From: Pseudomonadota bacterium
Lineage (GTDB): Bacteria > Pseudomonadota > Gammaproteobacteria > Burkholderiales > Methylophilaceae
NCBI GenBank assembly: GCA_029556915.1
Contig: JAKQIT010000015.1
Location: forward strand, 1 to 55,710
Direction: 5' to 3'
Length of the DNA stretch: 55,710 bases
The position numbers were made by a program, and so were the translations under genes. The notes beneath the pieces were generated by a model. It saw nothing but the letters and a program-made list of their open reading frames with translations, did no database searches and was not told the DNA's origin. Within the stretch, counting starts at the first letter, position 1. Each line of letters opens with the position of its first letter. Below, piece by piece: positions 14,423-52,067 of this stretch.

Positions 14423-14435
14423 ATTTAAAAGTGTT

Positions 14436-14567: not shown

Positions 14568-14608
14568 ATGCCAATTTTTGATAGTTTTTAAAATGTTAGG
14601 GGTTAAAA

Positions 14609-15913: not shown

Positions 15914-15975
15914 ACCCGTAATTTGTATAAGCGCATTACGTTGCGCTACTACAAAACCAAAATAAGGAGCACAGC

Positions 15976-16908: not shown

Positions 16909-16917
16909 GGACTCATC

Positions 16918-17721: not shown

Positions 17722-17749
17722 TTATTTAATAGTTAAAAGGGACATTGTG

Positions 17750-19147: not shown

Positions 19148-19194
19148 ATAACATATCATCCCTTAGTTTACTAAATTATTTAAAGTTAAATAAT

Positions 19195-21627: not shown

Positions 21628-21632
21628 TTTAC

Positions 21633-21689
21633 GCCCGAGAGATTTTTGCACCTCTGGAAGCCCCATAGAATAAGGCTTGCAGAAGTGGT
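21633..21689 (+). repeat. Dispersed hairpin repeat, copy B
   Basis: GCCCGAGAGA followed by a weaker hairpin (CTCTGGAAGCC ... GGCTTGCAGAAG) around CATAGAATAAGGCT and ending AGTGGT. It lies 6 bases after the nirB stop, between nirB and nirD, in the same orientation as the operon. It aligns over its full length with copies A and C. Confidence 0.65.
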
Positions 21690-21770
21690 CAAATGAAGAT
21701 GGGTAAAATCACTTGAAATAAACACCATAAGAATGGTTGTTTTTATGATTAGTTTCTTGAAAGAAAAAGT

Positions 21771-22085
21771 ATGTCTAATTGGGTAAAAATAGCGCCGCTT
21801 AACGAAATTCCAAAACTAGGCGCCCGCGTAGTTCGATGCAAAGATGGCGACATTGGCGTATTTCGCACCGAAGATGACCGCGTATTTGCCATTAATAATA
21901 GTTGCCCGCACAAAGGCGGCCCACTCTCGCAAGGCATAGTATATGGTGACAAAGTTGCTTGCCCATTGCATAGCTGGAAAATTAGCTTGGTAGATGGTAA
22001 GGCAGAAGAGCCTGATGTGGGACAAACAGCTTGCTTTAAGACTAAAGTTGAAGATGGTGTAGTGTATTTGGAATTAAAAGATTGA
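21771..22085 (+). CDS. nirD: Nitrite reductase small subunit with Rieske cluster
   Basis: A 104-residue Rieske-fold protein. Unlike some NirD proteins that have lost the cluster, both ligand boxes are present (CPHKGGPLSQG and CPLHSW, that is C-x-H ... C-x2-H), so it should bind a [2Fe-2S] centre and take part in electron flow to NirB. It is preceded by 143 bases after nirB that hold repeat copy B. The stop codon overlaps the TTG start of nasA. Confidence 0.9.
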   Translation: MSNWVKIAPLNEIPKLGARVVRCKDGDIGVFRTEDDRVFAINNSCPHKGGPLSQGIVYGDKVACPLHSWKISLVDGKAEEPDVGQTACFKTKVEDGVVYLELKD

Positions 22086-25036: not shown

Positions 25037-25441
25037 CTAAGCTATTTCTTTCAGATAGCTTCGCCAACCCCCTAAATGAGAAATGTCGATTGCGTTTAGT
25101 GTTGCATAGTGCTCACACAAAAATCCATTCACCGAGCGACCATCTGCCAGCGTTAACGTACCAAAACCTAGTGGTGCTGGTACGCCTAATACAAATGTGC
25201 CGTAATTTTCAATTGGTAGTTGCCATACTTCTAGTTTTATTGCAGCACCTTCATCGGCAACACGTAGCAGGCCTGGGCGCGCTGGTGTAAAGCCATTTAA
25301 TTTAAATAATTTGTATTCAGGTGCGGTGGTAGTTTCTTCGAGAAACGTACCACCTAAACTTGTTAATTGCGAGTTTAATGGCAACCCTTTCATATGTGCG
25401 CCACAGACTGCCACTTGGATAAACTTTTCGTTATTCGTCAT
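25037..25441 (-). CDS. Allophanate hydrolase C-terminal domain as a separate protein
   Basis: The 134 residues match the C-terminal domain that normally follows the amidase domain in allophanate hydrolase (VAVCGAHMKGLPLNSQLTSLGGTF ... TAPEYKLFKL ... PARPGLLRVA ... GRSVNGFLCEHYA ... GGWRSYL). In fused enzymes this domain handles the second step, loss of CO2 from N-carboxycarbamate. Here it has its own ATG, is in a different frame from the amidase gene and is separated by a 34-base gap with in-frame stops, so it is a genuine split rather than one missing base. It is the last gene of the operon. Confidence 0.8.
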   Translation of the reverse strand: MTNNEKFIQVAVCGAHMKGLPLNSQLTSLGGTFLEETTTAPEYKLFKLNGFTPARPGLLRVADEGAAIKLEVWQLPIENYGTFVLGVPAPLGFGTLTLADGRSVNGFLCEHYATLNAIDISHLGGWRSYLKEIA

Positions 25442-25475
25442 AATTGCTCGATTTTATTCTAGTGATTGATTGGTA

Positions 25476-26849
25476 TTACTTGATGTACGGCAAACCAGTT
25501 GCGCCTAATGTTTTTGCTGTTAAGTTTTGTACTTTTCCAGCTAATGCTAGCAGCTGGTTATCTTTAAAAGCTGGCGCACAAATAGTCACACCAAATGGTA
25601 ATCCATCGCATTGAAATCCTGTGGGCACAGCAGTTGCTGATAAATCAAGCAAGTTCATAAAGTTGGTGTAATAACCTAAATTTGAATTACAGCGTATCGG
25701 ATCTGCATTTACTTCATCAATGGTATAAATAGTACCTGTGGTTGGTGTAACGATAATATCTACATTATTCCAGACTGCTTCTGCCTTGCGTTGCAAGGCT
25801 TTTAGCTTGTATTGTGAAACATAGGTGTCAGCCGCACTAAACTTCGTGGCACCGCCAATAACTTGTTTGGTAACAGGAAAAATAGCTTCGGGCTTGGCTT
25901 CAAAAAAGTCTCGAATCGCCGCATACCGCTCCGCAAGCCATGGACCTTCATAAAGCAAACGAGCGGTTTCTAAAAATGGCTCAAAATCTATTTCTACAGC
26001 TTTACCGCCTAAAGACTCTAATTGTTGAATCGCTTGCTTAAATAATGCAGGGGTTTCGGCATTATCAAAAAATGCTAATTGTTCTGGCTTAGGTACGCCA
26101 AAGGTAAAGTTCTTATCCGAAATTGTTTGAACTTCGGCACTAGCTTTACGTGAATATGCATCTTCTTCATCAAAGCCCTGCGCGCTTTCTAGCACTTGAG
26201 CGGCATCTTCCGCTGTTAACGCAAAGATGGATACGCAATCAAGTGTCCGGCAGGCTGGAACGACTCCACGAGTACTCAACAAGCCACAGCTAGGCTTATG
26301 CCCTACCAAGTTATTAAACGAGGCTGGCACGCGGCCAGAACCCGCTGTATCTGTACCTAAACTAAAACTTGCCAACCCTAGCGCTACTGAAACGGCAGAC
26401 CCTGCGCTTGAGCCGCCTGAAATGTATTTGGTATTAAAGCTGTTTTGGCATGCGCCATAGGGAGAGCGCGTGCCAACTAGGCCTGTCGCAAATTGGTCTA
26501 GATTTGTTTTGCCAATAGGAATTGCACCAGCATCAATCAGCTTTTGCACAACAGTAGCGTTTGTTGTAGGCGTATATGCATATTCTGGACAAGCTGCGGT
26601 GGTTGGTATGCCAGCCAAATCGATATTGTCTTTAATGGCAAACGGTACGCCATACAAGGGCAAATCGGTAATACTTTTACCCGCTAGATCTTTAGCGTAA
26701 ACCATCATTTCATCCAGCGTTAAGCGTCTAATCCAAATATTGCGGCTGTCTTCATTACCAATTTCTGCATCCAATTGCTTCACTAAATCTGCTGGTGTGA
26801 GCGCGCCTGAAAGATACAGGTGCCGTAAGTGTGAGATTTGTAAGTTCAT
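25476..26849 (-). CDS. atzF: Allophanate hydrolase, amidase domain
   Basis: A 457-residue amidase-signature protein: the catalytic Lys is in YGVPFAIKDNIDLAGIP, the cis-Ser in GGSSAGSAVSVALG and the nucleophile Ser in LGTDTAGSGRVPA. Conserved allophanate-hydrolase features include SRNIWIRR near the N-terminus and GHKPSCGLLSTRGVVPACRTLDCVSIFA. It splits allophanate (N-carboxyurea) towards two ammonia and two CO2. The start at 26849 has an AGGAA site; the frame from 26915 would run inside the carboxylase gene. It lacks the usual C-terminal domain, which is encoded next door. Confidence 0.9.
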   Translation of the reverse strand: MNLQISHLRHLYLSGALTPADLVKQLDAEIGNEDSRNIWIRRLTLDEMMVYAKDLAGKSITDLPLYGVPFAIKDNIDLAGIPTTAACPEYAYTPTTNATVVQKLIDAGAIPIGKTNLDQFATGLVGTRSPYGACQNSFNTKYISGGSSAGSAVSVALGLASFSLGTDTAGSGRVPASFNNLVGHKPSCGLLSTRGVVPACRTLDCVSIFALTAEDAAQVLESAQGFDEEDAYSRKASAEVQTISDKNFTFGVPKPEQLAFFDNAETPALFKQAIQQLESLGGKAVEIDFEPFLETARLLYEGPWLAERYAAIRDFFEAKPEAIFPVTKQVIGGATKFSAADTYVSQYKLKALQRKAEAVWNNVDIIVTPTTGTIYTIDEVNADPIRCNSNLGYYTNFMNLLDLSATAVPTGFQCDGLPFGVTICAPAFKDNQLLALAGKVQNLTAKTLGATGLPYIK

Positions 26850-26854
26850 TTTCT

Positions 26855-29800
26855 TTATTCCTCTGCAATTACGATTAGGTTTTGACCGGCGGAGACTGAC
26901 ATGCCCGCACTGCATAATATTTTTGTGACTTTTCCAGTAGCATTTGCCATGACGGAAATTTCCATCTTCATTGACTCAACAACAGCGACTTCATCGCCTT
27001 CTTGAATCAAATCACCTTCTTTTAATTTAATCTGCCATAAATTTCCCGCAACATGTGAGGCAATGGCTCGGCTACCGGCTGGGATTTCTAATGTATCAAC
27101 TGAACTTTTTGACTCCGCCTCGTTACTGTAATTGGCTTGTCCTGAAGCAATCCAGCGCTCGCGTTCTGCATCAAAAGCATTTTGCTGCTTGGTTTTGAAT
27201 GCATTAATCGTTTCAGCTTCATTACTTAGAAACTGGTTGTAGTCTTTTAAACGGAATGTTTGTTCTTCAATGTTGAGTTTGAATTTTCCGTGCAGAAAGT
27301 CCTCACGCATTTGTAATAACTCATCTGCTTCTACTGGATAAAAGCGAATTTGGTCAAAGAATCGTAGTAACCACGGCTTACCATCGACAAAGTCCTTGGT
27401 TTGGTTCCACCTATTCCACATTTGTATGGTTCGACCCACAAACTGGTAACCTCCTGGGCCCTCCATGCCATAAACGCACATATAAGCGCCGCCTATACCC
27501 ACCGCATTTTCAGGCGTCCAAGTACGTGCAGGGTTATATTTAGTCGTTACTAAGCGATGACGTGGATCCACTGGTGTGGCAACTGGTGCACCTAGATAAA
27601 CATCTCCTAGGCCGAGCGCTAAGTAACTAGCATTAAACACAATATCTTTCACTTGTTGAATAGTGTCCAAACCGTTAATGCGGCGGATAAACTCAATATT
27701 GCTCGCATGTCCATCGACCATTTCGCACCAAGGTGCATCATTGCGCACCGACTGCATATACTTCTCAATCGCTAATTGGGTGGCGACATCATCCCAAGAG
27801 AGGGGCAAATGTACGATACGAGTCGGTACTTCCATTTCATCTACACTAGGTAACTCTGATTCAGCTTGTTGCAGAGTTTGAATGAGCTGTTTTACTGGTA
27901 ATATCAAGCTTTCAAAGTGTACTTGCAGAGAGCGTATGCCCGGTGTGAGGTCAATAATGCCTTTGATTTTATGCGCTTCAAGCCATTGCATGAGTGCATG
28001 CACACGGAATCTTAAATTCAAATTCAGCACCAATTCACCGTACTCGATTAAAAGATACTTGTCGCCTGATTGCCTGTAAACCACTTTGATTTGATCTGCT
28101 GTTTCAGCAATTTCAGCCAGAATTGGGCTATATTGGATAGCTGCATTCACAATCAATTGCGTTTGCTCACCGTTGAGATTATCAATTAAGCAGTTTTGCG
28201 CTAACTCATAGCTTGCGGCATCCTCTTGAGTCACCTTGATAAAGCGCACTTTATCGCCTGCTTTAAGCTGCCCCATTTTCCATAGTTCAGCCTGAATAAT
28301 CGTTGCAGGGCAAACAAAGCCACCTAGGCTAGGGCCATCTGGCCCTAAAATCACAGGCATATCACCCGTAAAGTCGACTGCACCAATCGCGTAAGCATTG
28401 TCATGGATATTGGATGGATGCAACCCAGCCTCGCCACCATCTTTACGTGCCCATTGCGGTTTGGGGCCAATCAAGCGGATGCCGGTTGTATTAGAGTTGT
28501 AATGTACTTCCCAATCGGTCGAGAAGAACATCGTGATGTCATCATCTGTAAAGAAATCTGGGGCACCATGCGGACCGTACAACACACCGATTTCCCAATA
28601 ATTACTATAACTAGGTTGTAATTCGCGCGGCAAGATTTTCGCATTATATTCAGTGGCCAATGGTGGAATATGTAATACATCGCCCACACGCAAAGTTCTG
28701 CCACCATGGCCGCCGAATTGTCCTAAGGTAAAGGTAGATTTACTACCTAAATAATCAGGCACATCAAAGCCGCCTTGTACAGCTAAATAAGTTCGGCAAC
28801 CAGCATCAAGTACTTTGCCTAGCTTTAATACGCTGCCTGCTTTAATGTGATGCGACTGCCACATCAATATCGGTTCGCCATCTAATGAGGCATCAATTGG
28901 CGCGCCAGTAATGGCGATAACAGAATCGGTATTAAATTTAAGTTTTGGGCCAATGAGGGTTATTTCTAATGCAGCAATACCTTCTGAATTGTTTACTAAT
29001 TTATTTGCAAATCTAAATGCCAAATGATCCATTGGTCCAGAAGGCGGCACGCCCACTGCCCAATAGCCAATACGGCCTGGGTAATCCTGAATGGTCGTCA
29101 TTACGCCACCATCTTGCACGTCAATGGTGTGTGGTTTATAGGTGAAACTATTTAAATAGCGGGTTATTTGTTTGCCAGCAGGAAAAACGCTATCCATCAA
29201 TACTTGGCGTAGATATTCCAAATTGGTTTCGATGCCATATAAAGAAGTTTCATTTAAGGCTGTGCGCATTTTTTCAACAGCGGTATCTCTATCGGAAGCA
29301 TGCACTAACACTTTGGCAATCAGTGGGTCATAAAATGGCGAAACGTCACTGCCAGTTTCTACCCAAGTATCGTTGCGTGCTGCGGATGAGAACTTAACCT
29401 CAGTTAATACGCCACTTGATGGCTGAAAGTTTTTGTTAGGATCTTCGGCATATAAGCGCACTTGAATGGCATGACCAGACGGGCTATGTGAATAAGCATC
29501 TAGAGTATTTGTTTCACCTGCGGCAATTCGTATCATCCACTCAACCAAATCTACGCCTGTGACCAGTTCTGTCACGCCATGCTCCACTTGCAAGCGCGTG
29601 TTCACCTCTAAAAAGTAAAACAGCCCTGAATCGTTATCGTAAACAAATTCAACTGTACCTGCAGAGCGGTAATTTAAAGCACTGCCTAGCTTAACAGCTG
29701 TAACAGATAGCGCTTTCCTAACCTCGTCTGTGATGTGTGGTGCAGGGGTTTCTTCAATCACCTTTTGATTACGGCGCTGTACTGAGCAATCACGCTCGCC

Positions 29801-30469
29801 AAGCGCAATTACTTTACCCAAGCCATTGCCAAATATCTGTACTTCGATATGGCGTGCGGCTTGTACATACTTTTCTAAATAGATACCAGACTCTTTAAAA
29901 TTAGCGCGTGATAGTCGTTGCACCGATTCAAAGGCAGCATTCAGTTCATCTGCGCTCCAAATCAACTGCATGCCAATACCGCCGCCGCCAGCAGTGCTTT
30001 TGAGCATGACGGGGTAGCCAATTTTTTCAGCGTTAAGATGCGCTTCATCAACACTTGCTAATAAACCTGTACCCGGTAATAAAGGCACACCATTTTTCTC
30101 AGCTAATGCACGTGCGGTATGTTTTAAGCCGAAATCACGCATTTGTTCAGGCGTTGGACCAATAAAGGCAATGCCTTTGGCTTCACATTTTTCAGCAAAG
30201 CCAGCATTTTCTGAGAGAAATCCATAGCCAGGATGAATTGCTTCTGCCCCTGTTTCGATAGCCGCTTGCAGTATTTTCTCAGCATTCAAATAGCTTTCTG
30301 CTGCTGGTGCTAGGCCTATGCAAACAGCTTCATCTGCATCAAGCACATGACGTGCCCCCGAGTCAGGCTGTGAATAAACCGCCACAGATTGAATGCCCAT
30401 TTTTTTAAGAGTGCGAATCACGCGGCAAGCAATCTCTCCGCGATTTGCAATTAGGACTTTTTTAAACAT
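26855..30469 (-). CDS. Biotin-dependent guanidine/urea carboxylase
   Basis: A 1204-residue multidomain enzyme: biotin carboxylase ([26 protein letters not shown]-grasp block [12 protein letters not shown], the HIEVQIFG and [15 protein letters not shown] segments), then KipA/KipI-type carboxyltransferase domains ([58 protein letters not shown]), and a biotinyl domain with VESMKMEI (biotin Lys about 1168). The family is annotated as urea carboxylase, but enzymes beside DUF1989 pairs and under a guanidine-I riboswitch carboxylate guanidine. I therefore infer guanidine as the substrate. The start is chosen at 30469 (GAGAAG upstream). Five bases separate it from the amidase gene. Confidence 0.9.
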
Positions 30470-30550
30470 ATTGTTCTTCTCACTGCATTGCGAGCCGTCT
30501 CGCATTTTTCATTCCGTATCAGGTCGTCCAGCTACGGTTGCCTTATTGGG

Positions 30551-31198
30551 TTAATTCCAAATCAACAATTGAATGGGAGTTGGGTTGTAGGCGTTACATG
30601 GATTATTCAATTGCGGACAATTGGAAATAAGCACTAACACATCCATCTCAGCACGCATTTCCACGTACTTACCTGGCGCTGAAATGCCATCGGCAAAGCT
30701 TAATCCGCCATCAGACGTGACAGGCACATTCATGAAAAAGTTGATGTTGGCCGTGATGTCACGTTTGCTGATATTTCTCTCAATCACACGGGCCGAGTGG
30801 GTAATGGCATGCATAAAACTATCACGGCAACTATGCATAGGGCGTTTGGACAAGGCATAACGCGTGGTATTACTTTCAGCAGAGCAGGCGCCGCCAATAG
30901 TGTCATGGCGACCACATGTATCTGCTGTAATCGTTAGCATAGGGTTGCCTTCGCTGGAATAAAGCACCGAGCCTGTGGTAAGATAAATCTGACCTTGGCG
31001 TTGGATAGTATCAACCGCGCTGTAACGCTCAGTTGCATCAATGGCGTTATAGAAAAGTGTATCAACCGCTTGATTACCTTCTAAATCTAGAATGCGGAAA
31101 GTTTGACCTTTTTTGACAATGCCAGTCCATGGATCACCTGCATTACAGGTTTCACTCAGCACAGCATCCTCTGGTAGAAATTTACTTTCAGTTAACAT
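30551..31198 (-). CDS. DUF1989 protein, probable carboxyguanidine deiminase subunit (UAAP1 type)
   Basis: A 215-residue DUF1989 protein ('urea carboxylase-associated protein 1'). Visible family blocks: [52 protein letters not shown] (likely metal-binding Cys/His) and [16 protein letters not shown]. Work on such pairs showed that they deiminate carboxyguanidine to allophanate and ammonia (CgdAB). Together with the 31207-31935 product it should form the enzyme between the carboxylase and allophanate hydrolase. The genes are eight bases apart. Confidence 0.85.
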
Positions 31199-31206: not shown

Positions 31207-31935
31207 CTATTGAGCGTAAAAGCGTTCTGTATTAATAAAGCCGCGTTGATTTTGCTCACATGCGTTGCGACAAACATCATCCTCTGCAGCATTGCCTGCA
31301 TGCCATGCGGTCAATAACACATCGGATGGTTGATAAGTCATTGCCGTATCCAATGGATGTGGCGCAGTTGATAATACGGCCAGCACGTTCATATCAAAGC
31401 GCAAATCAACCACATCGCCCGCTTTGCTATTGCCTGCATTGAAAACCAAACCGCCACTATCGTTAGCACTGACTTTGCTGAATAAATTTACATTGGCGAC
31501 CAAATCACGCTGATCTAATCCGTGCTTGGCAAGCTCGATTAACAAGCCATCTTTTGCGCTTCGATACATCTCGTTTCGGTGTGTTTGATAATTGGCAACG
31601 CCATACTTTTGCTCAATGAGTTTTGCATCAGAAATGCCGCACATGGTGTCGTGCCAGCCTATCGTGTCATGAATAAATGAGCACATCACGCGTCCCATAT
31701 CGGAATAACAGACATTACCCGTGGTTAAAAAAGCCGTATGTTGCGCTTTTAAACTATCAGGCATGTTGTAGCGCTCTAGCTTTTCTTCCATGTTGTAAAA
31801 AAGAATAGAAACATTAGCGCCACCTTGCATGTCAGTAAATCTAAGTGCAGTGCCACGACGCATGAGACCTGACCAGTGATTGCCACCAGGTACTGTCTCT
31901 TCCCACAGTATTTCTTTTTGATTAAAAGTGCTCAT
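31207..31935 (-). CDS. DUF1989 protein, probable carboxyguanidine deiminase subunit (UAAP2 type)
   Basis: A 242-residue paralogue of the neighbouring DUF1989 protein ('urea carboxylase-associated protein 2'). Shared blocks are [50 protein letters not shown] and [20 protein letters not shown]. The metal-site stretch has fewer cysteines than the partner (WHDTMCG against [11 protein letters not shown]), so the two subunits are not equivalent. Predicted role: carboxyguanidine deiminase with its neighbour. Confidence 0.85.
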
Positions 31936-31988: not shown

Positions 31989-33350
31989 CTAAAACAGATA
32001 ACTGTATCGCTCGACTTCCCATTGGCTGACGGTCAAGTGGTACGTTTCCCACTCTTCAGTTTTGTATTTTATAAACTCATCGCGTAGCTCTTTACCTAAT
32101 GTTTTTTCAACCAAGGGGTCTGCGGCAAATGCGGCAACTGCCTCTATCAGCGTTTGTGGTAAAAAACCGATTCCACGTGCTTGGCGTTGTTCTTCGTTCA
32201 TGTCGTAAAGGTTATCTTCATTCGGTTTGCCTGGATCTAAACCTTCTCGAATACCTTCGAGCCCAGCGGCTAAGGCCAATGTTGCAGCAAGGTAAGGATT
32301 TACCGCACCATCAGCATTGCGCGATTCGCAGCGCCCGCCGCCCATGGGCACACGTACAGAGTTAGTGCGGTTATTTGAGCCATATGAATTGAACACTGGC
32401 GCCCAACTGAAATAACTCATGGCACCACGGCGAACTAATCGTTTATAACTGTTAACCGTAGGTGCAAATGCAGCGCACAAGGCTGGGCCATGTTTTAAAA
32501 TGCCGGCAATAAATTGATAACCAAGCGTTGTTAAGCCAAGTCCACGCGGGTCATCTTTTGGATCACAAGCGAACAGATTCTTGCCTGTTTTTAGGTCATA
32601 AAGTGACATGTTGAAATGCGCACCGGTGCCCGTTTTATCGGCAAATGGTTTTGGCATCATGGTTGCTATCATTCCATCTTCTTTAGCGTAATGCTTAGCC
32701 ATATATCTAAAGAAAATCAAGCGGTCACAAGTGGTTAATGCATCGCTGTAATTGAAGTCAAATTCAAATTGGCTATTGGCGTCTTCATGGTCAAATGAAT
32801 ATAAATCCCAGCCCAAGCTATTTATTGCCGTGGCCATTTTATCTAGCCAGCTAAAGTTATCCATAAAGCCACGCACGTCATAGCAAGCCTTTTCAAGCTT
32901 ATCGTCTGGATTAGGGATGCTTAAATGACCATCAGCATTTTGTTTTAACAAATAAATCTCGCACTCAATACCAAGATTCATGCCGAAGCCCATTTGAGCT
33001 GCTTGTGTTAAAACATTCTTAAGCGCTACGCGCGTATTTAATGCATAAGGTTTACCTTGAAAGTGATTATCTGCTGGCATCCAAGCAACTTTAGGCTCCC
33101 AAGGCAATTGAATGATATGGTCTAAATCTGGCACAGAATTTAACTCATCATCACTTGGCGCTTGCCCCAAGCCATCCAGCGCATAGCCTGTATAGCGCTC
33201 AGATCCCGCGGCCATTTGTGGTAAATGGTCTATCGGAACCACTTTAGCTTTAGGAATGCCGTGAATATCGACATAAGCACCGATGCAATATTTAACACCT
33301 TGGTCTTGCAGTTTTTGTTGTATTGCTGAAACTTCTTTTGCTGATTTCAT
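31989..33350 (-). CDS. glnT: GlnT-like type III glutamate-ammonia ligase family enzyme
   Basis: A 453-residue glutamine-synthetase-fold protein. Metal and glutamate-site motifs are visible: [46 protein letters not shown] and [31 protein letters not shown]. It fits the GlnT/'type III' group that also contains gamma-glutamylmethylamide synthetase of methylotrophs. In this operon it may capture released ammonia as glutamine, or glutamylate another amine; sequence alone cannot decide. It lies between the hydrolase and DUF1989 genes with short gaps, so it is part of the same transcript. Confidence 0.8.
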
Positions 33351-33362: not shown

Positions 33363-34139
33363 CTAATGCGTATGATTGGAAAAATAAGAATTTTCTAAAG
33401 GTGGTGTTTCTTTTAAACCCTGTTGAATCAGCTTGCTGAGGTCTTCGACCATCCACTGAAACCATGCATCGCCTTTTTCAGCACTTGAAATACTGGGCGT
33501 GCCAGTGACACCATTGGTACTAGTGCGGTTTACAGGGTGAGAGAAAACCAAGCCTTCGGTACGATCTGGATCATCTGCAATATTTAATAACTCACTACGT
33601 ACCATATGAGGGGCTGTGGCAAGCATCAGCGAAGTTTCCGCATCATTTGCATGCCAATCGTCGCCATCTGCATGATGAAACTGTCTCACGCGTTCGCTAA
33701 TGTGAGCGGAATTAATCAAGCTCACCATCATGTCGTCGTGTTCTGCACGTAACATTTCCAAAGCACAGCGCAGTGGTGCTGCATTGGTGACATGGGTGTT
33801 CACAATAAATAGACGGCGAATACCACTGTGATAAGCCCAGTCTCCAATATCCCTCATCATATTTATCAAGGTAATTGGTTGAAGTGCCAAAGTACCTGGC
33901 CAGCGTTGACTATGCCCAATAGAGCAGCCGTAAGGCATGGTTGGCAGCATAGGTACGTTACATGACTTTGATACAGCACTACATAAAATATCCGCTAATA
34001 CATAGTCCATACCACAGCCCATGTGCGGCCCATGCTGTTCGGTAGCCCCAATCGGCAAAATGGCGGCTTGATGAGCATCTGCAATTTTTGCGGGCAATTC
34101 CGCCCAAGTGAGTTGAGACCAAAACATGTTATCTATCAC
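33363..34139 (-). CDS. Creatininase-family amidohydrolase
   Basis: A 258-residue member of the creatininase (creatinine amidohydrolase) family. EQHGPH at 34-39 and Asp45 give the first metal ligands, and HANDAETS near 163-170 is the family's late motif. The usual N-G-H-x-x-N box is NTHVTN (114-119), with the His kept but Thr where true creatininase has a Glu ligand, so creatinine itself is an unsafe guess. It could open a cyclic or amide guanidine compound to feed the pathway. The GTG start overlaps the ATPase stop by four bases (GTGA). An ATG four codons later is an alternative. Confidence 0.75.
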
Positions 34140-35056
34140 TCCACATTGTCTTCAACGTTAACAAAACGAATCATTCGCTGAGTAATGGCTTCATCTTCAG
34201 CATCTTTCTCAGCAGTTGTTTTGGGTGGGTGGATAAGCGACTCTAGCCGTGCTTTAGTGGCTAGAAATTCTTGGCTTGTAAAGTCTTTAACACTTCGTGG
34301 GCGCGGCACTGGCACTTCAATTAACTCCTGCACTTCGCCTGGGTGGGCTTTTAGTACAAGAATTCTATCTGCCAGAAAAATAGCTTCATCTAAGTCGTGG
34401 GTAATAAACAAAATAGTTACATCTACATTTCGCCAAATTTCAAGTAAATGTGTTTGCATCTTGGCGCGAGATTGCGCATCCAAGGCACCAAAAGGCTCAT
34501 CCATTAATAAAATTCGTGGTTGATTAACTAATGCACGCGCGATGGCAACACGTTGTTTCATGCCTCCAGAAAGTTCATGCGGATATGCGTTTGCGAATTT
34601 CTCTAAGCCAACTAACTCCAGCCACAAATCTGCCTCTTTCGCGGCTTCATTAGCACTGGCATTGTTCATTTCCAGTCCAAACATGACGTTCTTTTTAACG
34701 CTTAACCACGGAAACAAGGTGTAGCCTTGGAACACCATCCCTCGGTCGCGCCCTGGCCCTGTCACTGGTTTATCATCAAGCAAAACATCACCTGACGTGT
34801 GAGATTCCAAGCCAGCCAGAATACGAATTAACGTTGATTTACCACAGCCAGATGGACCAATCACGCACACAAATTCGCGTCTGTGCGTTTTAAAGTTAAT
34901 GTTTTTAAGTGCGGTGACCTCACCTTTTGCAGTCTTATAAACTTTACCTAACTGCTTCACTTCTAAAATAACTTCACGCTGTTTCAGTCTGTCAAAGCGA
35001 CTCTTAACGGCCTCTGACTGGTCTAAGTAACTGGGAAGATTTGTATTCATGTCCAT
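34136..35056 (-). CDS. ABC transporter ATPase (nitrate/taurine family, predicted guanidine uptake)
   Basis: A 306-residue ATPase: Walker [11 protein letters not shown]-loop [13 protein letters not shown], signature [16 protein letters not shown], Walker [13 protein letters not shown] and switch [10 protein letters not shown]. An N-terminal ~28-residue extension and a charged C-terminal tail ([16 protein letters not shown]) flank the core. It pairs with the permease 8 bases upstream. The riboswitch and the catabolic genes downstream point to guanidine or a guanidino compound as cargo. Confidence 0.88.
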
Positions 35057-35064: not shown

Positions 35065-36030
35065 TTACTCTTTATTTGCAGGTCTGTCCCAAGGGAACAA
35101 GTGTTTGCCTAGCCAACCTAGCATTAAATCTCCGCCTAGACCAATTACACCGATGATGATGATAGCGGCATAAACATTATCAAAATGCTGATAACGTGCT
35201 TGCTGGGTGATAAACCAGGTGATGCCTGAGGATGTACCAATCAGTTCTGCCACTATTAGATAAGTCCAAGCCCAACCTAGTAGAATGCGCTGGTCACGAT
35301 ATAGCTCTGGCAATATGCCGGGAATAATTACATGCATCATGAGTTTAAATTTACTGGTGCCTAGTGTTAGCGCAGCTTCTAGCAATGAGTAATCAAGCTT
35401 ACGTGTGGTATTGGCAACTATCAGAATTTGCTGAAACAAAGTACCAATCACGATAATCGCGATTTTTGGCCCGTCATAAATTCCTAAAATAGCAACGGCC
35501 AGTGCACCAAATGCTGGCGCAGGCAAATACCTGAAAAACTCTATGAAGGGCTCATTAATGCGTGATATGGCACTGTAAGTTCCACATAAAATTCCGAGTG
35601 GAACACCAATTAAAGATGAGATAAAAAATCCCCAAAATATAATTTGAATGCTGTGCCAAAGACTTTCATGTAGCCATTTACCATCTCGTTGCTCTGGTGC
35701 TGTTGTGAAGCCTGTATATAATGCTCTTGCCACCTCGTGAGGAGCAGGTAAATAGATTGGGTTGGCTGGCTTACCTTCAGGAATCGCCTTCCCCGCAGCA
35801 AGCATATTGGCGCTTTCATCGTTAAACACTGCTTTATCAACTAGCATGTCCACTTGAAAATAATCGACCTCACCAGGATGACTTACCAATACCATTGGAT
35901 GCCATATAAACGGTACATAACTTACCGCACACCAAATTAGCAAAGGCAACAGAAACGAGCCTAAACCCAATATTTTTTGTCTACGCGGCGACAACTCTCT
36001 GCGCACCGCAAACCAAGACGCTAGACTCAT
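35065..36030 (-). CDS. ABC transporter permease (SsuC/TauC/NrtB family)
   Basis: A 321-residue permease with about six helices. A ~90-residue periplasmic loop lies between helices 1 and 2 ([31 protein letters not shown] ...), longer than usual. The EAA loop is around [51 protein letters not shown]. It forms the membrane part of the predicted guanidine importer between the binding protein and ATPase genes. Confidence 0.88.
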
Positions 36031-36087: not shown

Positions 36088-37089
36088 TTATTTAGCAAGC
36101 AATGATGGGTCGATTGCTTTCTCAATATCCATTGGCTTTTTATATACACCGTACTTGACATTGAAGTCATCAGAGATTTTTGAAGAGCCGTATAAAGATT
36201 TAAAGCCAGGCGCTTTAACAAATACTTTTCTACCATCCTCAAGACTCAATAATTTAGTGCCTTTCAATAGGGGTAAATAAGCTTCAGGCTTGATTCCCAC
36301 GCGGGCTGCCATGATTTTGACTGCATCTGGTTGAGTTTTAGGGTCATTGATGTACATCACAACTTTGTCCCAAACTTTAACCACTTTTTTCCAGTCTGCT
36401 TTGCGGCTAGATAAACTTGTTGGGCTTACCGTTAATACATCATAAATAAGACCTGGCTCATCGGCAGAAGTGTAGATTGGTTTAGCACCAGGAACACGGC
36501 TCATGGCTTCACCTGAATTAGGTTGCCAAGCACCAATAGCAACTAAATCACCAGAAGCTAATGCTTGCGGGGTTTCATTGGTTTTGGTGTTAACAATGAT
36601 GACATCAGATTCTTTCATGCCAACCTTTTCTAACCCATTGAGCAGTAGCAGATGCTCAACAAAGCCAGTTTCTAAACCAATTTTCTTGCCTTTTAAATCC
36701 TTCAGATTTTTGATGCCTTGCTTAGCCACAATCATATCGTTGCCATTGGAGTAATCAGTCAAAAGAATCATGACGTTTTTTGCCCCTCCTGAACCCGTCA
36801 CAAGCGCATCGCCATTGGTGACAGTGACACCATCAATTTTTCCTGCGGCAAACGCGTCCATAGAGGCAACGTAATCAAACCACTCAAACTGAACATCAAC
36901 ACCTGCTTCTTTAAACCAGCCTTTTTCAATAGCCACTTGCCATGCGACCCAGCCTGGCCAATCGCTATAACCAATTTTCAATGGCGTGGCGGCATTTGAT
37001 AAATTTGTAAACAGCAATGATGCAGTGAGTGTAGTAGCAGTTAAAACGGTACGTAAAGAAAATCGCTTGAAAAAATTTGAAGTATGCAT
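36088..37089 (-). CDS. ABC transporter periplasmic binding protein (predicted guanidine-type substrate)
   Basis: A 333-residue NMT1/SsuA-like protein. A Sec signal ([23 protein letters not shown]) is followed by [52 protein letters not shown], the usual family opening. AGGAG precedes the ATG. It is the first gene after the guanidine-I riboswitch, so its expression should rise with intracellular guanidine. The family name often says nitrate, sulfonate or taurine; regulation and neighbours argue otherwise. Confidence 0.88.
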
Positions 37090-37140
37090 GGCTAGCTCCT
37101 AGATTGATTAAAAGTCGAGAAGGCGGCATGAATATACGCA

Positions 37141-37240
37141 TCCTCCCGGGCTTTTATCCCTCCGTGTAGCCATGTATAAATTGGCCGACAACTCTTGGAC
37201 CAGACACTTAATATGTTAAAAAGCCGGAACCCTAGTCATC
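37141..37240 (-). promoter_or_regulatory. Guanidine-I (ykkC class) riboswitch
   Basis: Read on the minus strand, the three conserved blocks occur in order: GACTAGGGTTCCGGC, then GTCTGGTCCAAGAGT, then ACACGGAGGGATAAAAGCCC followed by GGGAGG. These match the ykkC/guanidine-I consensus almost base for base. The aptamer ends about 50 bases before the binding-protein ATG. A terminator after it is not clear (no T-tract), so control may be at translation or through a structure I cannot resolve by eye. Confidence 0.93.
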
Positions 37241-37297
37241 TTTTGAAACTGTTAGCGGATAGTTACTCAATTCACCGCTTTCTCGCTAATTTATACC

Positions 37298-39775: not shown

Positions 39776-40960
39776 ATGTCTGATACGATTTTACTAGGTA
39801 CTCGTAAGGGCACGATAATATTTGATCGTATAAACTCCAAATGGTGCCCTCGCCCTATCGCGCATGCTGGCATTCCCGTTTGTTACGCGGCACGTGACCC
39901 TCGTGATGGCACCTTGTGGGCGTCTCTAGATCATGGGCACTGGGGGCCAAAGTTATCCCGTTCTCGTGATGGGGGTGCAAGCTGGGTCGACATCACCTCG
40001 CTAAAATATCCAAAAGGCGCACGCTATATCGTCAAATATCTACCTACCCCTGATTTCAATCCAGAGTCCCCCTCCGCGCTGCCAGAATATGCTGATGCAA
40101 CCGTGCTAAAAATATGGAATATTACGTTTGGAAATGCAACTCAGCCTAACAGGCTGTATGCAGGCACTATTCCGGGGGGGGTGTTTGTAAGTGATGATGG
40201 CGGTGATAGCTGGGAACTCAACCGACCACTATGGAACCATGATAGCCGCGGTGGTGATTTGTTTGCAGGTGATGCGACAACTGAAAACCGCTGGTTCGGC
40301 ACACCTGCAAGCATCGATTATGGCGTATTTGAACCGGGCATTCATTCCATCATTGTTGATCCGCGAGATTCAGAGCATATCTATGTTGCGGTATCCGCAG
40401 CAGGCGTAATTGAAACAACTAATGGTGGCCAAAGTTGGCATAGCAGTAGCAAAGGTATGCTGAATGATTACTTGCCAAATCCTGAATCAGAGTGGGGTCA
40501 CGACCCCCACTTTGTGACGAGTTGCTCTAGCCAGCCCAAGCATCTGTGGCAGCAAAATCACTGCGGTGTCTTTTATAGTGATAACGGAGCGCAGAACTGG
40601 AAAAAGGTCAGCATACCAGATATCGGCGTTAATTTTGGTTTCCCAATTGCGGCTGACGCGAATGACGGACGCACCGCATGGGTAGTGCCGGCGCGCGCAG
40701 ACTCAGAACGAATGGCGATTGATGGTAGTTTATTGGTGGCACGAACAACGGATGGCGGACAAAGCTGGCAAACTTTCCGAAAAGGACTACCGCAAGACAA
40801 TGCTTATGACATCGTACTGCGGCATGGCCTTGATGTATCGGGAGATTGTTTATGCTTTGGAAGTACGTCTGGAAATCTTTATTTGTCAGAAGACCGTGGT
40901 GAAACATGGCAATGCTTAGGCAATAATTTTCCACCGATTTACTCTGTAAGATTTGGCTAA
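39776..40960 (+). CDS. BNR/sialidase-like beta-propeller protein
   Basis: A 394-residue cytoplasmic protein (no signal peptide) built of BNR/Asp-box repeats: SRDGGASW, SDDGGDSW, TTNGGQSW, YSDNGAQNW, TTDGGQSW and SEDRGETW, six repeats spaced along the chain, consistent with a six-bladed propeller. Asp boxes are structural, so sialidase activity is not implied; no arginine triad was recognised. GAGAGGG precedes the ATG. The stop overlaps the start region of a MoaD/ThiS-like gene, which suggests that the two products work together. Function unknown. Confidence 0.8.
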   Translation: MSDTILLGTRKGTIIFDRINSKWCPRPIAHAGIPVCYAARDPRDGTLWASLDHGHWGPKLSRSRDGGASWVDITSLKYPKGARYIVKYLPTPDFNPESPSALPEYADATVLKIWNITFGNATQPNRLYAGTIPGGVFVSDDGGDSWELNRPLWNHDSRGGDLFAGDATTENRWFGTPASIDYGVFEPGIHSIIVDPRDSEHIYVAVSAAGVIETTNGGQSWHSSSKGMLNDYLPNPESEWGHDPHFVTSCSSQPKHLWQQNHCGVFYSDNGAQNWKKVSIPDIGVNFGFPIAADANDGRTAWVVPARADSERMAIDGSLLVARTTDGGQSWQTFRKGLPQDNAYDIVLRHGLDVSGDCLCFGSTSGNLYLSEDRGETWQCLGNNFPPIYSVRFG

Positions 40961-41402: not shown

Positions 41403-42413
41403 TTAACCACCTGTATAAGACATAAACCGTACTACTGACGGTGATGCGCGTTTTAGGTCAAAGTCATGTCCTTTAGGCCTGATTTTCATACTATTGATAA
41501 TTGCTTGCTTTAGCGGTTGGTCGGTATCGGGAAAATCTCTTAACAATGGCCTTAAATCTACTTTGTTTTCTTGTCCTAAGCATAAATATAACTCGCCTTT
41601 ACAACTGATACGCACGCGATTGCATGACTCGCAGAAGTTATGGCTATTGGGAGAAATAAATCCAATTTTTGTGGCAGAGTTGGGAATTGACCAGTATCGT
41701 GCCGGCCCCCCTGTGGTTTCAGAGCTACTGATTAAATCGTAACGTGCTCTAAGCAAACTTAAAGTTTCATCATTACTTACATAGCTAGCACTTCGGGTGT
41801 GGCTCACACTACCTAACGGCATTTCTTCTATAAAGGAGATGTCCAATTCTTGTTCTATAGCAAACGCAGTTAATGGCAAAGCTTCATCATCGTTAATACC
41901 TCGCAAAAGCAAAGCATTCAGCTTAATGCTTTTAAAGCCAGCTTGTTTAGCTACGGCAATTCCGCGCAACACTTTATCCAATTCACCAACACGTGTAATT
42001 TGATGAAATCGTGATGCATCCAAGCTATCCAAACTGATATTAATGCGTTGTACGCCAGCTCTTTTCAAGGCGTGGGCGTGGTGCTCTAATTGTGAGCCAT
42101 TCGTGGTTAACACAAGTTCACGTAAGCCTTGCAATTGACCAATTTTTTCAAATAATTGAATCGCATTTTTACGTACTAGTGGCTCGCCTCCGGTGATACG
42201 CACTTTGCTTACACCCAAAGATACAAAAACCTTTACTAAACGTGCGCATTCTTCTAGCGATAGCACATCATCACGTGGCAAAAACTTCATATCTTCAGCC
42301 ATGCAATAAACGCAACGAAAGTCACACCTGTCCGTGATGGATAAGCGAATATAATCAATTTTGCGACCAAATCGGTCTATCAGCATTGATGGATGTTGAT
42401 CATTTTTTTTCAT
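41403..42413 (-). CDS. moaA: GTP 3',8-cyclase, molybdenum cofactor biosynthesis
   Basis: A 336-residue radical-SAM enzyme making the first step of molybdopterin synthesis. The N-terminal cluster is CDFRCVYC (Cys30, Cys34, Cys37). The C-terminal cluster is CESCNRVRISCKGELYLC with the third Cys 14 residues on. The C-terminus is GG, as in active MoaA. It lies 7 bases after the porin in the nar cluster, so cofactor supply is tied to the nitrate reductases NarG and NasA. Confidence 0.95.
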   Translation of the reverse strand: MKKNDQHPSMLIDRFGRKIDYIRLSITDRCDFRCVYCMAEDMKFLPRDDVLSLEECARLVKVFVSLGVSKVRITGGEPLVRKNAIQLFEKIGQLQGLRELVLTTNGSQLEHHAHALKRAGVQRINISLDSLDASRFHQITRVGELDKVLRGIAVAKQAGFKSIKLNALLLRGINDDEALPLTAFAIEQELDISFIEEMPLGSVSHTRSASYVSNDETLSLLRARYDLISSSETTGGPARYWSIPNSATKIGFISPNSHNFCESCNRVRISCKGELYLCLGQENKVDLRPLLRDFPDTDQPLKQAIINSMKIRPKGHDFDLKRASPSVVRFMSYTGG

Positions 42414-42420
42414 TATTTAA

Positions 42421-43809
42421 TTAAAATGTGTACATACCAGTTAGCCAGAATATTTCTTTATCACCCTTACGGGCGGCATTGGTTAATGAACCATAAACAT
42501 CGCTTTCGTTAAATTTTGCGTACTCTAATTTACCCATGATTTTTGATGTGAATGGGTATGCCACACTCACATCAAATTCGGTACCGTATTTATCACCCAA
42601 TTTCCCATTGATAGACTGATATTTCTCATCTGCTTTGAAGATGTGATATTCAGCATACAGCTTAGCCTTTTCAATACTGCCCGCCATGGTAATGAACGTA
42701 TCTTCCATGCCTTGACGCGGTGTAGCAAGAAACACATCAGCCCAGCCTTGGAATAAGTGGTTTGTACCCAGAGGCGTTTGGAATGCGTATTTACCGTCGT
42801 TGCTGGAGAGTTTCTCGTGATCAATGCGTAATGACCAATTGCCATAACCCGCACCGCCGCCCAGTTTGAAATAATGGGCATCAATCAACGAACTGCCTCC
42901 GCGATAATCCGTTTGTTTTGCATATTCGGCCGTGTAGAGTGCTCTCCAAGCATCATTGATTTTATGTGTACCATCTAAACGCACTCCGAAAGTTTTTGAA
43001 CTGGCATCTGTGGTTGCAGTTGGTGTTGTATCTTGGCTAGCACCTAAACCATTTCCCCCTTGTGCCGCCGTACTTATTGCGGCAGGGTTGCCGTTATTCT
43101 GCCCTAGGTTGGCAACATCAATAAAATATCCGTAGCCGATTAAACTTTCTGTAGGGGATATTTTGTATTTTGCATTAAATATATCAATATTGCCATCACG
43201 TAGCTTAGTCGTAATTTGTCGAACTTTGCCAAAGTGCGCAGCGAATATTTCAGTGTTCGGGATGCTGCTATTGAATACTGAAATTCCGTCGAACACTTGC
43301 ATATTTTGCCTAAAGCCTATGTCGCCAATAAAACGCACATTGTCTAAATTCAACTGCTGGCGCCCGAAACGCAATCTAGTACTATTGATACCAGTCCAAT
43401 CTACAAACAATTGGTTAATGTCCGTGTAACTTGGGTCAACTACATTAGGATAATTTGCTTTACCAGTCTCACTTATATTATCGCGCCTATCGTTAAAGCT
43501 ATGGTTGAATTCATGTACATCTGTAAGTTGGGCAGCAAAACTGAAACCATGAAAAGGAGCCGTTTGCCAACCAATTAAGCTACGCAAGGTAAGTGCACTG
43601 GCGGTATCCAATTTTTTGGATGCATTGGGAGCAGGTTGAAATGCTTCCTGATCCACATTTTCATAGCGCAAACGAAAGTTTGTCATTGGTTTACCATGGC
43701 TAATAGCGTCTAACAATGTTTCAGGTGCACTAGGTTGAGTTTCTTCAGCAATGACAGGTAGCGTATACGCAGCCGCTAGCAAAATAACCGTATTTAATAG
43801 GTGTTTCAT
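42421..43809 (-). CDS. Alginate-export-type outer-membrane porin, respiratory copy
   Basis: A 462-residue beta-barrel starting at MKHLLNTVILLAAAYTLPVIAEE (GGAG upstream; the frame from 43833 overlaps narI). It is plainly a paralogue of the 17750-19147 product: GRQQLNLDNVRFIGDIGFRQ is identical, and LTLRSL.GWQTAP, DINQL.VDWTGI, QTPLGTNHLFQGW and the terminal WLTGMYTF are nearly so. A Gly/Ser/Thr-rich insertion around AAQGGNGLGASQDTTPTATT is special to this copy. By place between narI and moaA it probably passes nitrate or nitrite for respiration. Confidence 0.85.
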   Translation of the reverse strand: MKHLLNTVILLAAAYTLPVIAEETQPSAPETLLDAISHGKPMTNFRLRYENVDQEAFQPAPNASKKLDTASALTLRSLIGWQTAPFHGFSFAAQLTDVHEFNHSFNDRRDNISETGKANYPNVVDPSYTDINQLFVDWTGINSTRLRFGRQQLNLDNVRFIGDIGFRQNMQVFDGISVFNSSIPNTEIFAAHFGKVRQITTKLRDGNIDIFNAKYKISPTESLIGYGYFIDVANLGQNNGNPAAISTAAQGGNGLGASQDTTPTATTDASSKTFGVRLDGTHKINDAWRALYTAEYAKQTDYRGGSSLIDAHYFKLGGGAGYGNWSLRIDHEKLSSNDGKYAFQTPLGTNHLFQGWADVFLATPRQGMEDTFITMAGSIEKAKLYAEYHIFKADEKYQSINGKLGDKYGTEFDVSVAYPFTSKIMGKLEYAKFNESDVYGSLTNAARKGDKEIFWLTGMYTF

Positions 43810-43829
43810 ACTGGTCTCCAATAAATTTC

Positions 43830-44519
43830 TCAAAAATGACGTTTACTACGCACAATTTGATAAGGGCGATTAACATAGCCAAATGGTGCGCTCCAAACGT
43901 GTACCATGCGGGTAAATGGGAAAACCAAGAACACGGTCATACCAAAAAACAGGTGTACTTTGAAAATGGTATCCACCCCATCAAGCAGAGCAGGATTTGG
44001 ATGTAAATAAATAATGCTTTGCACCCACTCAGCCAACGCAATCATGACGCTTGGGTTGCCGTGGTTTGCATGACCTATAGAAACGGGAATAGTGGACAAG
44101 CCCAAGATGAGAGTAATAAGTAGCCAAGTGAGTATAAATTTATCTGAGCCACGGCTGGTAGCCGAAACGCGGGCATTGACCATACGGCGCAACCAGAGAA
44201 TAACACCTCCCGCTAGGCACATCACTCCAAAAATGGAGCCTGCCCAGATAGCGACCATCTGATGCGCCATATCCGACACGCCGACGGCTTGAAACCAGCT
44301 ATGCGGCGTGAGTAAGCCGACAAAGTGACCACCAAAAATCGCAAGAATACCAGCATGGAATAAATTACTTCCCAGCCGCAAGTTAGCCTTCGACAACAAT
44401 TGGCTTGAATCGCTTTTCCAAGTGTACTGCTCACGGTCAAAGCGTAACAAACTACCTAGCAAAAATACACTAAGCGCAATATAAGGATATACTCCATATA
44501 GGAAATTGTGTAGGTTCAT
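43830..44519 (-). CDS. narI: Respiratory nitrate reductase gamma subunit (cytochrome b)
   Basis: A 229-residue membrane protein with five hydrophobic helices, holding haem-ligand histidines in NLFHAGILAIFGGHFVGLL and VHLFFGMTVFLVFPFTRMVHVWSAP. It oxidises quinol and passes electrons through NarH to NarG. Length and motifs are normal. It is preceded by narJ with a 22-base gap. Confidence 0.95.
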   Translation of the reverse strand: MNLHNFLYGVYPYIALSVFLLGSLLRFDREQYTWKSDSSQLLSKANLRLGSNLFHAGILAIFGGHFVGLLTPHSWFQAVGVSDMAHQMVAIWAGSIFGVMCLAGGVILWLRRMVNARVSATSRGSDKFILTWLLITLILGLSTIPVSIGHANHGNPSVMIALAEWVQSIIYLHPNPALLDGVDTIFKVHLFFGMTVFLVFPFTRMVHVWSAPFGYVNRPYQIVRSKRHF

Positions 44520-44541
44520 TTTGTTCTCCTTTTAGACTAAC

Positions 44542-45060
44542 TTAGGCCGCTAATTTATTTAGTGTTGCCCGATTTTCAACAATAGAAAGCAATGCCGCAT
44601 ACGGACTTTCAGCTTTTTGTAAATTCTCAGTCAGTACAACTAATACTTTTTTTGCATCAGATAAAAACACCGTCGCCTCGTTGTCTTCCATATAGGCGGC
44701 AAACTCAAGTACGAGCGGTAAATAGTCGGGTAATTCATTAGTCACCACCTCGACACCGTAATCTTTATAAAGCTCACCTAAGTCAATCAACGCTGGACCA
44801 CGATTTTTATCATCGCCAAAAAGATGATGCGTGAGATGAAGGCTATGCTCCGCTGTCATATCAAACGTTTTCACATAATCCGCTTGTAGTTCAGTCAAAG
44901 AAACACACTGCAGATGGTTGAGAAAGCCTTGCAATGCTTCACGCTCGGCACCATCAATTTCTTGGTTTTGCTTAACAAAATCTTGCAATTCAGACAGATG
45001 TTCAACCAACTCTTGATTTGGATAATCGAGTAAAGCAGAAAGTAATTTATAGATTTGCAT
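44542..45060 (-). CDS. narJ: Nitrate reductase assembly chaperone
   Basis: A 172-residue helical protein of the NarJ/TorD family (LLDYPNQELVEHLSELQDF ... DYVKTFDMTAEHSLHLTHHLFGDDKNRGPALIDLGELYKDYG). It helps to load the molybdenum cofactor into NarG before the complex docks to NarI. It is shorter than some homologues, which have a longer C-terminal tail. It sits between narH and narI as usual. Confidence 0.94.
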   Translation of the reverse strand: MQIYKLLSALLDYPNQELVEHLSELQDFVKQNQEIDGAEREALQGFLNHLQCVSLTELQADYVKTFDMTAEHSLHLTHHLFGDDKNRGPALIDLGELYKDYGVEVVTNELPDYLPLVLEFAAYMEDNEATVFLSDAKKVLVVLTENLQKAESPYAALLSIVENRATLNKLAA

Positions 45061-45070
45061 GATGTCTTCC

Positions 45071-46609: not shown

Positions 46610-46629
46610 GATGTTCTCCTTTTATCTTT

Positions 46630-50379: not shown

Positions 50380-50441
50380 TGTTTTCTCCTTGCAAATTTA
50401 TCTTGAAGTGCAAACCCAGCTTTAATCTAATTCAATTCAGG

Positions 50442-52049: not shown

Positions 52050-52067
52050 CTGATTTCTCCCAGAAAT

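Follow-up and report, generated by a model that had tools for sequence, protein, structure and literature searches.

Gene content of the locus

We analysed a stretch of DNA of 55,710 nucleotides (the window) from a member of the Methylophilaceae, a family of methanol-eating bacteria (methylotrophs). The assembly to which it belongs comprises 3.27 Mb in 165 contigs (completeness 99.99, contamination 5.65%), and the nearest named organisms among the best 80 of 525 relatives listed are Methylotenera. On the minus strand, the window carries a guanidine-I (ykkC) riboswitch aptamer followed by an operon of ten close-packed genes, spaced at -4 to 57 nt (Table 1). The original prediction had described this operon as encoding an ABC importer, two DUF1989 proteins, a biotin carboxylase and allophanate hydrolase. 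All of these are indeed present, but three features were absent from its list: a creatininase-family amidohydrolase (CRN), a GmaS-type amine:glutamate ligase (GSL), and the division of allophanate hydrolase (AtzF) over two ORFs. The start of CRN overlaps the stop of the ATPase gene by 4 nt (the gap of -4), and the ORF for the amidase domain of AtzF, whose start we set at Met22 of the listed ORF, begins 2 nt after the carboxylase stop.

Table 1. Features of the guanidine-I riboswitch and its operon in the window
Feature	Position	Strand	Basis
Guanidine-I (ykkC) aptamer	37141..37246	-	RF00442, 83.0 bits, E 2.3e-13
Terminator-like hairpin, probable expression platform (ligand ON switch)	37110..37148	-	folds; relatives
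Ribosome-binding site AGGAG of SBP gene	37100-37096	-	sequence
Binding protein (SBP) of ABC importer, NMT1 family	36088..37089	-	PF09084/PF13379
ABC permease	35065..36030	-	PF00528
ABC ATPase	34136..35056	-	PF00005
CRN, creatininase-family amidohydrolase	33363..34139	-	PF02633, 226.5 bits
GSL, GmaS-type amine:glutamate ligase	31989..33350	-	TIGR03105, 658.1 bits (cut-off 469.6)
CgdA, predicted carboxyguanidine deiminase subunit (DUF1989, UAAP1)	31207..31935	-	TIGR03425, 346.5 bits (cut-off 205.95)
CgdB, predicted carboxyguanidine deiminase subunit (DUF1989, UAAP2)	30551..31198	-	TIGR03424, 344.3 bits (cut-off 284.7)
Predicted guanidine carboxylase (model name urea carboxylase)	26855..30505	-	TIGR02712, 1921.7 bits (cut-off 1303.85); D711, D968
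Allophanate hydrolase, amidase domain	25476..26852	-	TIGR02713, 620.4 bits (cut-off 511.05)
Allophanate hydrolase, C-terminal domain, separate ORF	25037..25441	-	PF21986, 169.5 bits

The operon is flanked by look-alikes of nitrate transport and nitrite/nitrate reductase genes (13844-24829 (+)) and, on its other side, by respiratory nitrate reductase, narK-like and moaA-like genes (41403-53327 (-)), all named by reading the sequences. Elsewhere in the window, two adjoining ORFs (11605-13324 (+)) presumably resemble an AbiEi/AbiEii-type pair. A 394-aa BNR-repeat protein (39776-40960 (+)), encoded between a YbaL-like antiporter gene and a moaA-like gene, weakly matches a glycosylhydrolase model (56.3 bits, with a cut-off of 175).

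A guanidine-I riboswitch and its probable expression platform

We compared the whole window with 4227 Rfam families using cmscan at the gathering threshold, and RF00442 was the sole match. The original prediction had named a search with this covariance model as one check, and the outcome was significant: the match covers the model at full length (positions 1-107 of 107) and scores 83 bits, compared with a gathering score of 63. The prediction of all three conserved ykkC/guanidine-I blocks on the minus strand ahead of the operon's first gene is likewise borne out (CTAGGGTTCCG, CTGGTCC.AGAG and ACACGGAGGGATAAAAGCCCGGGAG). The aptamer had been placed at 37141-37240, which is the right location, but its 5′ limit was drawn too short, as the true start lies 6 nt further upstream (37246). 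Our own model R1, which was built partly from this same sequence, gives the aptamer 115.7 bits. There are three guanidine-I aptamers in the assembly, of which the two others both lie on contig C9, and no guanidine-II riboswitch was detected in the window by cmscan at the gathering threshold.

The aptamer ends 51 nt before the first ATG of the operon (37089). A hairpin (37148-37116) overlaps the 3′ end of the aptamer, and is followed by an ACUUUU tail, then by AGGAG and then by the ATG. This overlap between aptamer end and hairpin is likewise readable in relatives. The hairpin folds reach only modest z-scores (-1.18 and -1.49 in the window, and -2.05 and -2.38 in the relatives L012 and L045), and a simple consensus scan for terminators detected none. 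The arrangement is consistent with a probable ON switch responding to guanidinium, where we infer both the ligand and the direction of switching. Guanidine bound to the aptamer would keep the aptamer's 3′ strand out of the terminator-like hairpin, and the ten-gene transcript would then be made.

The operon core and probable guanidine assimilation

Under standard annotation, the locus would be a urea-degradation operon with a urea carboxylase and an allophanate hydrolase. The names of TIGR02712 and TIGR02713, and the scores that the window's proteins reach on them, agree with this reading, and the genome has no match to urease alpha (PF00449), hence a urea route would be useful. However, the 1216-aa carboxylase has an aspartate (D711) opposite Asn1330 of the Kluyveromyces lactis enzyme in the printed alignment to urea amidolyase 5i8i, and a second aspartate (D968) opposite Asp1584 in the alignment to 3va7 (offset 593); both positions are our own count, with the letters checked. 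Guanidine carboxylases have been defined by aspartate at both K. lactis positions 1330 and 1584 (PMC11410670), and are described as having aspartate where urea carboxylases have asparagine (PMC12186494). Both aspartates are found in 57/57 readable loci (95 loci were searched, some of which share one genome). Aspartate instead of asparagine at position 1330 and the guanidine-I riboswitch led us to reject the urea route, and with the CgdAB pair also pointing away from urea, we regard this reading as hardly probable at all.

The two DUF1989 proteins score above the cut-offs of the UAAP1 and UAAP2 models (Table 1), which we take to represent CgdA and CgdB, in agreement with the earlier proposal that such a pair acts as carboxyguanidine deiminase. 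This assignment is by model scores, whereas the printed definition is based on a tree (PMC11410670). For AtzF, we found both the amidase and the C-terminal domain, split over two ORFs (25037-26852 (-)). Separate C-terminal ORFs of AtzF cluster in 10 further loci.

With a full-length aptamer, both carboxylase aspartates, and CgdA and CgdB above their cut-offs, the sequence evidence supports the original prediction of guanidine assimilation. We estimate a probability of about 0.9 that the operon assimilates guanidine by the gca-cgdAB-atzF pathway already known, a figure that applies to this core and excludes the acyl-guanidine idea for CRN and GSL discussed below. Riboswitch-controlled gca operons have already been published (PMC12186494, PMC12508155, PMC11410670). 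According to the published chemistry, guanidine carboxylase, whose membership we tested by sequence, would convert guanidine to carboxyguanidine with ATP; CgdAB would remove one NH3 from carboxyguanidine to leave allophanate; and the split AtzF would hydrolyse allophanate to two NH3 and CO2. The nearest protein to a guanidinase in the genome is only a ureohydrolase of 30% identity.

The gca-cgdAB-atzF operons described from Vreelandella boliviensis and Pseudomonas syringae (PMC12508155, PMC11410670) share with the window the four-step route and an ABC importer, and the V. boliviensis operon also has a guanidine-I riboswitch (PMC12508155). Compared with these operons as described, the window adds CRN and GSL between the importer and cgdA, has AtzF in two ORFs and an SBP under the TIGR03427 cut-off, and shows no guanidine-II riboswitch at the gathering threshold. 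TIGR03427 is a model for the SBP of 'urea' ABC transporters, on which the window's SBP scores 152.4 bits (cut-off 333.9). No protein in the genome exceeds this cut-off, and the two weak matches are the SBPs of the two guanidine operons. In our best explanation, the importer would take up guanidine or a close derivative. Points that weigh against this explanation are the SBP score so far under the cut-off, the modest hairpin folds, the relatives whose gca operon has importer genes of its own, the genomes with the CRN block and no carboxylase (both described below), and the contamination of the assembly.

It could also be supposed that the operon chiefly detoxifies guanidine instead of supplying nitrogen, as other genes under guanidine riboswitches are reported to encode guanidine exporters (PMC12186494). 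However, this operon encodes a complete route to NH3 as well as an importer that includes a binding protein, and adjoins the nitrate-use look-alike genes (named by reading), so we consider detoxification as its chief purpose very unlikely.

A GmaS-type ligase and an altered creatininase-family protein

GSL exceeds the cut-off of TIGR03105, a model named type III glutamate-ammonia ligase, and PDB entry 7cql, which is a GmaS, is also titled 'Type III glutamate--ammonia ligase'. The best PDB matches of GSL are glutamate-methylamine ligases, at 387 (9qur) and 323 bits, compared with 235 bits for the best glutamine synthetase. In GmaS, Trp300 replaces the flap glutamate (Glu304) of glutamine synthetase and alanine replaces the ammonium-binding aspartate, and catalysis by RhGmaS is ascribed to Asp177, Glu186 and Arg312 (PMC7948447). 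Mapped by hand on alignments, GSL matches the RhGmaS pattern, with W316 at the flap-glutamate position, T54 at the ammonium-aspartate position, and D187, E196 and R328, each of these five residues being present in 70/70 sequences. The 70 are the window and 69 of the 76 loci L012-L087, taken at no less than 70% identity and 90% coverage and with no stop, a selection that excludes divergent GSLs; four Hyphomicrobium-type GSLs, read separately, likewise have the flap tryptophan.

GSL also differs from GmaS itself. A distinct GmaS that is much nearer to 9qur (844 bits) is encoded on contig C23 of the assembly, so we set aside the idea that GSL is the cell's methylamine enzyme. GSL forms a clade apart from this GmaS with support 98/97, although the GmaS row is long-branched and flagged as unsure. 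A Tyr313-Phe314 pair, present in 68/70 and 69/70 GSLs respectively, is absent from the genome's own GmaS. Since the flap glutamate and ammonium aspartate are missing, the PDB matches are GmaS-like and the clade is its own, we expect GSL to glutamylate some amine different from ammonia. The sequence evidence therefore supports a GmaS-type ligase, and we set aside a glutamine synthetase that uses ammonia, given the two missing residues.

Nevertheless, GSL might merely re-assimilate the freed ammonia as a dedicated glutamine synthetase, with CRN doing an unrelated job. Its score above the cut-off of the TIGR03105 equivalog model fits this possibility, as do the three NH3 reported to be freed per guanidine (PMC11410670). 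Against it stand the replacement of the flap glutamate by tryptophan and of the ammonium aspartate by threonine in 70/70 sequences, and the kinetics published for RhGmaS, which has the same tryptophan and a Km of 8.7 mM for NH4Cl vs 27 uM for methylamine. Furthermore, four more genes of the GS family are present in the assembly in addition to GmaS and both copies of GSL, and GSL adjoins CRN in nearly all loci compared (see below). We thus consider ammonia re-assimilation unlikely.

CRN belongs to the creatininase family (PF02633), and like creatininase it retains E34, H36, D45 and H116, which are invariant in 73/73 sequences (the window and 72 of the 76 loci L012-L087, with identity of at least 70%, 90% coverage and no stop in the match). 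In contrast to creatininase, it has Thr118 (72/73) at the position of Glu122 and serine or threonine at position 144 in place of Trp154, and Trp174 has no aligned counterpart. We take Glu122 to be a second-metal residue of creatininase, and also assume the roles of Trp154 and Trp174. On the creatininase equivalog model TIGR04448, CRN scores 116.9 bits, below the cut-off of 235. CRN is thus a creatininase-family amidohydrolase whose metal and substrate site is, judging by these residues, altered. With the score under the cut-off and Glu122, Trp154 and Trp174 not kept, we think creatinine an unlikely substrate.

Genomic company of the importer-CRN-GSL block

A scan of species genomes with the CRN pair gave 594 pattern matches and 525 relatives, of which we took the best 80. 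Three of these (L088, L090 and L091) were excluded at 34, 29 and 32% identity, and the remaining 77, at 58-92% identity, were used. Among the 77 loci from the best 80 of 525 relatives, GSL stands beside CRN in 75 (within 300 nt in 74, and at 463 nt in one), and the two loci without GSL are contig-end fragments; the three importer genes are complete in 69/77, and a carboxylase lies in the CRN locus itself in 44/77.

We searched 24 genomes whole, namely those of 23 of the 33 loci without a carboxylase and that of L034; the other ten loci include many short contigs. The guanidine-I riboswitch is found in 21/24 of these genomes. A carboxylase is found in 20/24, including that of L034: in 18 it scores above the cut-off, and in two it is in pieces across two contigs each, which we read as contig breaks. 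Four of the 24 genomes (L035, L054, L063 and L064) have the CRN block and no carboxylase, and only that of L054 has a guanidine-I riboswitch. In 150 Methylophilaceae genomes, we found CRN in 25, the carboxylase in 35 and both in 23. The carboxylase is thus present in 23/25 genomes with CRN vs 12/125 without it (Fisher p 2.8e-16, with kinship ignored).

The gene order in L054 is riboswitch, SBP, MgdL-like gene, 2-oxoglutarate (2OG) dioxygenase, permease, ATPase, CRN, GSL and ureohydrolase. The ureohydrolase scores 539 bits to 7esr and 529 bits to 9fek (both 'agmatinase 2' entries), compared with 169 to guanidinobutyrase, and we take 7esr to be the Synechocystis guanidinase. This guanidinase-like gene is followed by an ORF for a His-rich protein of 157 aa (L054:12204-13893 (+)), in a genome without a carboxylase above the cut-off. 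The co-occurrence with the carboxylase across the family and the guanidinase-like gene of L054 together suggest that CRN-GSL goes with guanidine use. From these gene associations, the pair is apparently linked to guanidine use by either chemistry, that of the carboxylase or that of a guanidinase-like enzyme.

Of the 20 CRN genomes that have a carboxylase, we inspected the gca region in 14, comprising 11 in which the CRN block has the NikR form (see below) and three of Hyphomicrobium type, whose block has neither form of control. A guanidine-I riboswitch is present in 14/14 of these regions. The gca operon has no importer like that of the window in 5/14 (L208, L214, L216, L217 and L218), and in L218 the CRN block lies directly upstream of the gca operon. 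The other 9/14 regions have importer genes inside the gca operon, 27-46% identical to those of the window. The importer of the CRN block may therefore carry guanidine or a derivative, depending on the genome, and where the gca operon has its own importer, that of the block may import something else.

A riboswitch-headed CRN-GSL-gca operon is also seen in L062, from a metagenome-assembled genome titled Klebsiella pneumoniae. This label is possibly wrong, since its GSL groups with Thiotrichaceae-labelled and Gammaproteobacteria rows (100/98).

A NikR-like protein as a possible substitute for the riboswitch

Two forms of putative control accompany the block, tallied by a 900-nt rule. Among the 77 loci from the best 80 of 525 relatives, a guanidine-I riboswitch stands directly before the block in 16, and in 49 a NikR-like protein of the ribbon-helix-helix type is encoded next to it, mostly just after GSL. 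Only one of these loci (L017) has both and 13/77 have neither, so the two are nearly exclusive (p 1.4e-7, with kinship ignored; 77 loci from the best 80 of 525). L025 was tallied under 'neither' because its riboswitch precedes an MgdL-like gene ahead of the SBP gene, outside the 900-nt rule.

The four nickel-ligand positions, taken as those of E. coli NikR, are badly conserved across an alignment of 37 NikR-like proteins: the three histidines are found in 5, 21 and 21 of 37, and the cysteine in 0/37. The NikR-like neighbour in other genomes could point to a block concerned with nickel, but with the ligands so degraded we think this unlikely. The counter-evidence is the NikR-like protein of L017 (12138-12602 (+)), which reaches 114.3 bits (cut-off 105) and 93.2 bits (cut-off 83) on two NCBIfam NikR models and falls short on the remaining three listed. 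As part of the speculative acyl-guanidine reading given below, the NikR-like protein, encoded beside the block in most of the carriers, may sense guanidine or its conjugate and stand in for the riboswitch.

A second operon and possible methylguanidine genes

The assembly contains a paralogous operon (L004, C9:1-16000) with two guanidine-I riboswitches, at 1013-1116 and 5244-5346. The first heads fatty-acid-desaturase-like, MBL-lactonase-like, 2OG-dioxygenase and EamA genes, and the second heads an MgdL-like gene, the importer, CRN, GSL, CgdA, CgdB and the carboxylase. Contig C9 is possibly from a co-binned relative, given two near-identical glnA-like genes and the contamination of 5.65%.

The MgdL-like protein of L004 (5574-6266 (+)) has no Pfam or NCBIfam match. 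Its D42-x-R44 motif is invariant in 7/7 such proteins (L004, L016, L023, L025, L026, L054 and L061), and the N-(hydroxymethyl)guanidine lyase MgdL has an Asp49/Arg51 pair (PMC12508155). The 2OG dioxygenase of L004 (2989-4047) has its best PDB match in 9ovh, an entry for an ethylene/succinate-forming enzyme, with 198 bits. The likeness to MgdL consists of the D-x-R motif; together, the MgdL-like and dioxygenase genes suggest methylguanidine demethylation.

Similar genes were seen in two further regions. In L209 (G158:C14:187000-206000), desaturase-like, EamA, creatininase-family (29%), MBL and MgdL-like genes lie beside the gca operon (10386-18871 (-)), and another guanidine-I aptamer (C14:207027-207129 (-)) is found about 1.2 kb upstream of the cluster. 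In L213 (G151:C12:70000-86000), a 2OG-dioxygenase-like (50%) and an MgdL-like protein (32%) are encoded upstream of the genes for the importer and the gca route (14336-15999 (-)).

Possible roles of CRN and GSL

The pathway core is known, and what is new is the CRN-GSL block within the operon. Among the publications listed by a literature search, with most subscription papers outside its reach, none links a guanidine riboswitch to a creatininase.

The substrate of creatininase, creatinine, is an acyl-guanidine in cyclic form, which the enzyme cleaves at the acyl-N bond. If GSL used guanidine as its amine, the product would be gamma-glutamylguanidine, an open-chain acyl-guanidine, whose acyl-guanidine bond CRN could hydrolyse to release guanidine to the carboxylase or guanidinase. 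GSL and CRN might then be a guanidine-specific pair, in which a glutamyl conjugate traps or detoxifies incoming guanidine and CRN cleaves that conjugate. The handling of an acyl-guanidine is our leading guess for the two enzymes, although we regard the proposal as speculative and rather improbable. A comparable logic is known from AtdA1/AtdA2 (a gamma-glutamylanilide synthase and a GAT-like hydrolase), where a GS-like amine glutamylase is encoded with an amidase that reverses its reaction, and where this ligase-hydrolase pair is described as setting the level of the glutamyl amine beside the degradation route in aniline use (PMC11335346). However, the hydrolase family and the substrate class differ, so the likeness is one of logic, not of kinship.

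The block could instead handle a guanidine derivative, such as methylguanidine, a creatinine-like compound or another acyl- or alkylguanidine, and feed guanidine to the carboxylase. In favour of a derivative are the other importer found in 9/14 gca regions, the MgdL-like and 2OG-dioxygenase genes that L004 and L054 carry within the block or adjoining it, and the acyl-guanidine bond that creatininase itself cuts. On the other hand, in the 5/14 gca operons without a window-like importer, the block may carry guanidine, and the window's operon has no MgdH- or MgdL-like gene. The guanidine-I riboswitch of V. boliviensis is moreover reported to show no binding of methylguanidine in the range tested (PMC12508155). 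We consider a derivative a real if tentative possibility.

For the organism, guanidine assimilation as the function of the operon core corrects an annotation as urea, nitrate and taurine genes, and adds guanidine to the likely nitrogen diet of a methylotroph. Across its relatives, a conserved five-gene block, consisting of three importer genes, a creatininase-like gene and a GmaS-like gene, tracks guanidine carboxylase and, once, a guanidinase-like gene. If true, the acyl-guanidine idea would add a new step between the uptake and the breakdown of guanidine, now labelled 'glutamine synthetase' and 'creatininase', and would also add a protein regulator that replaces a riboswitch.
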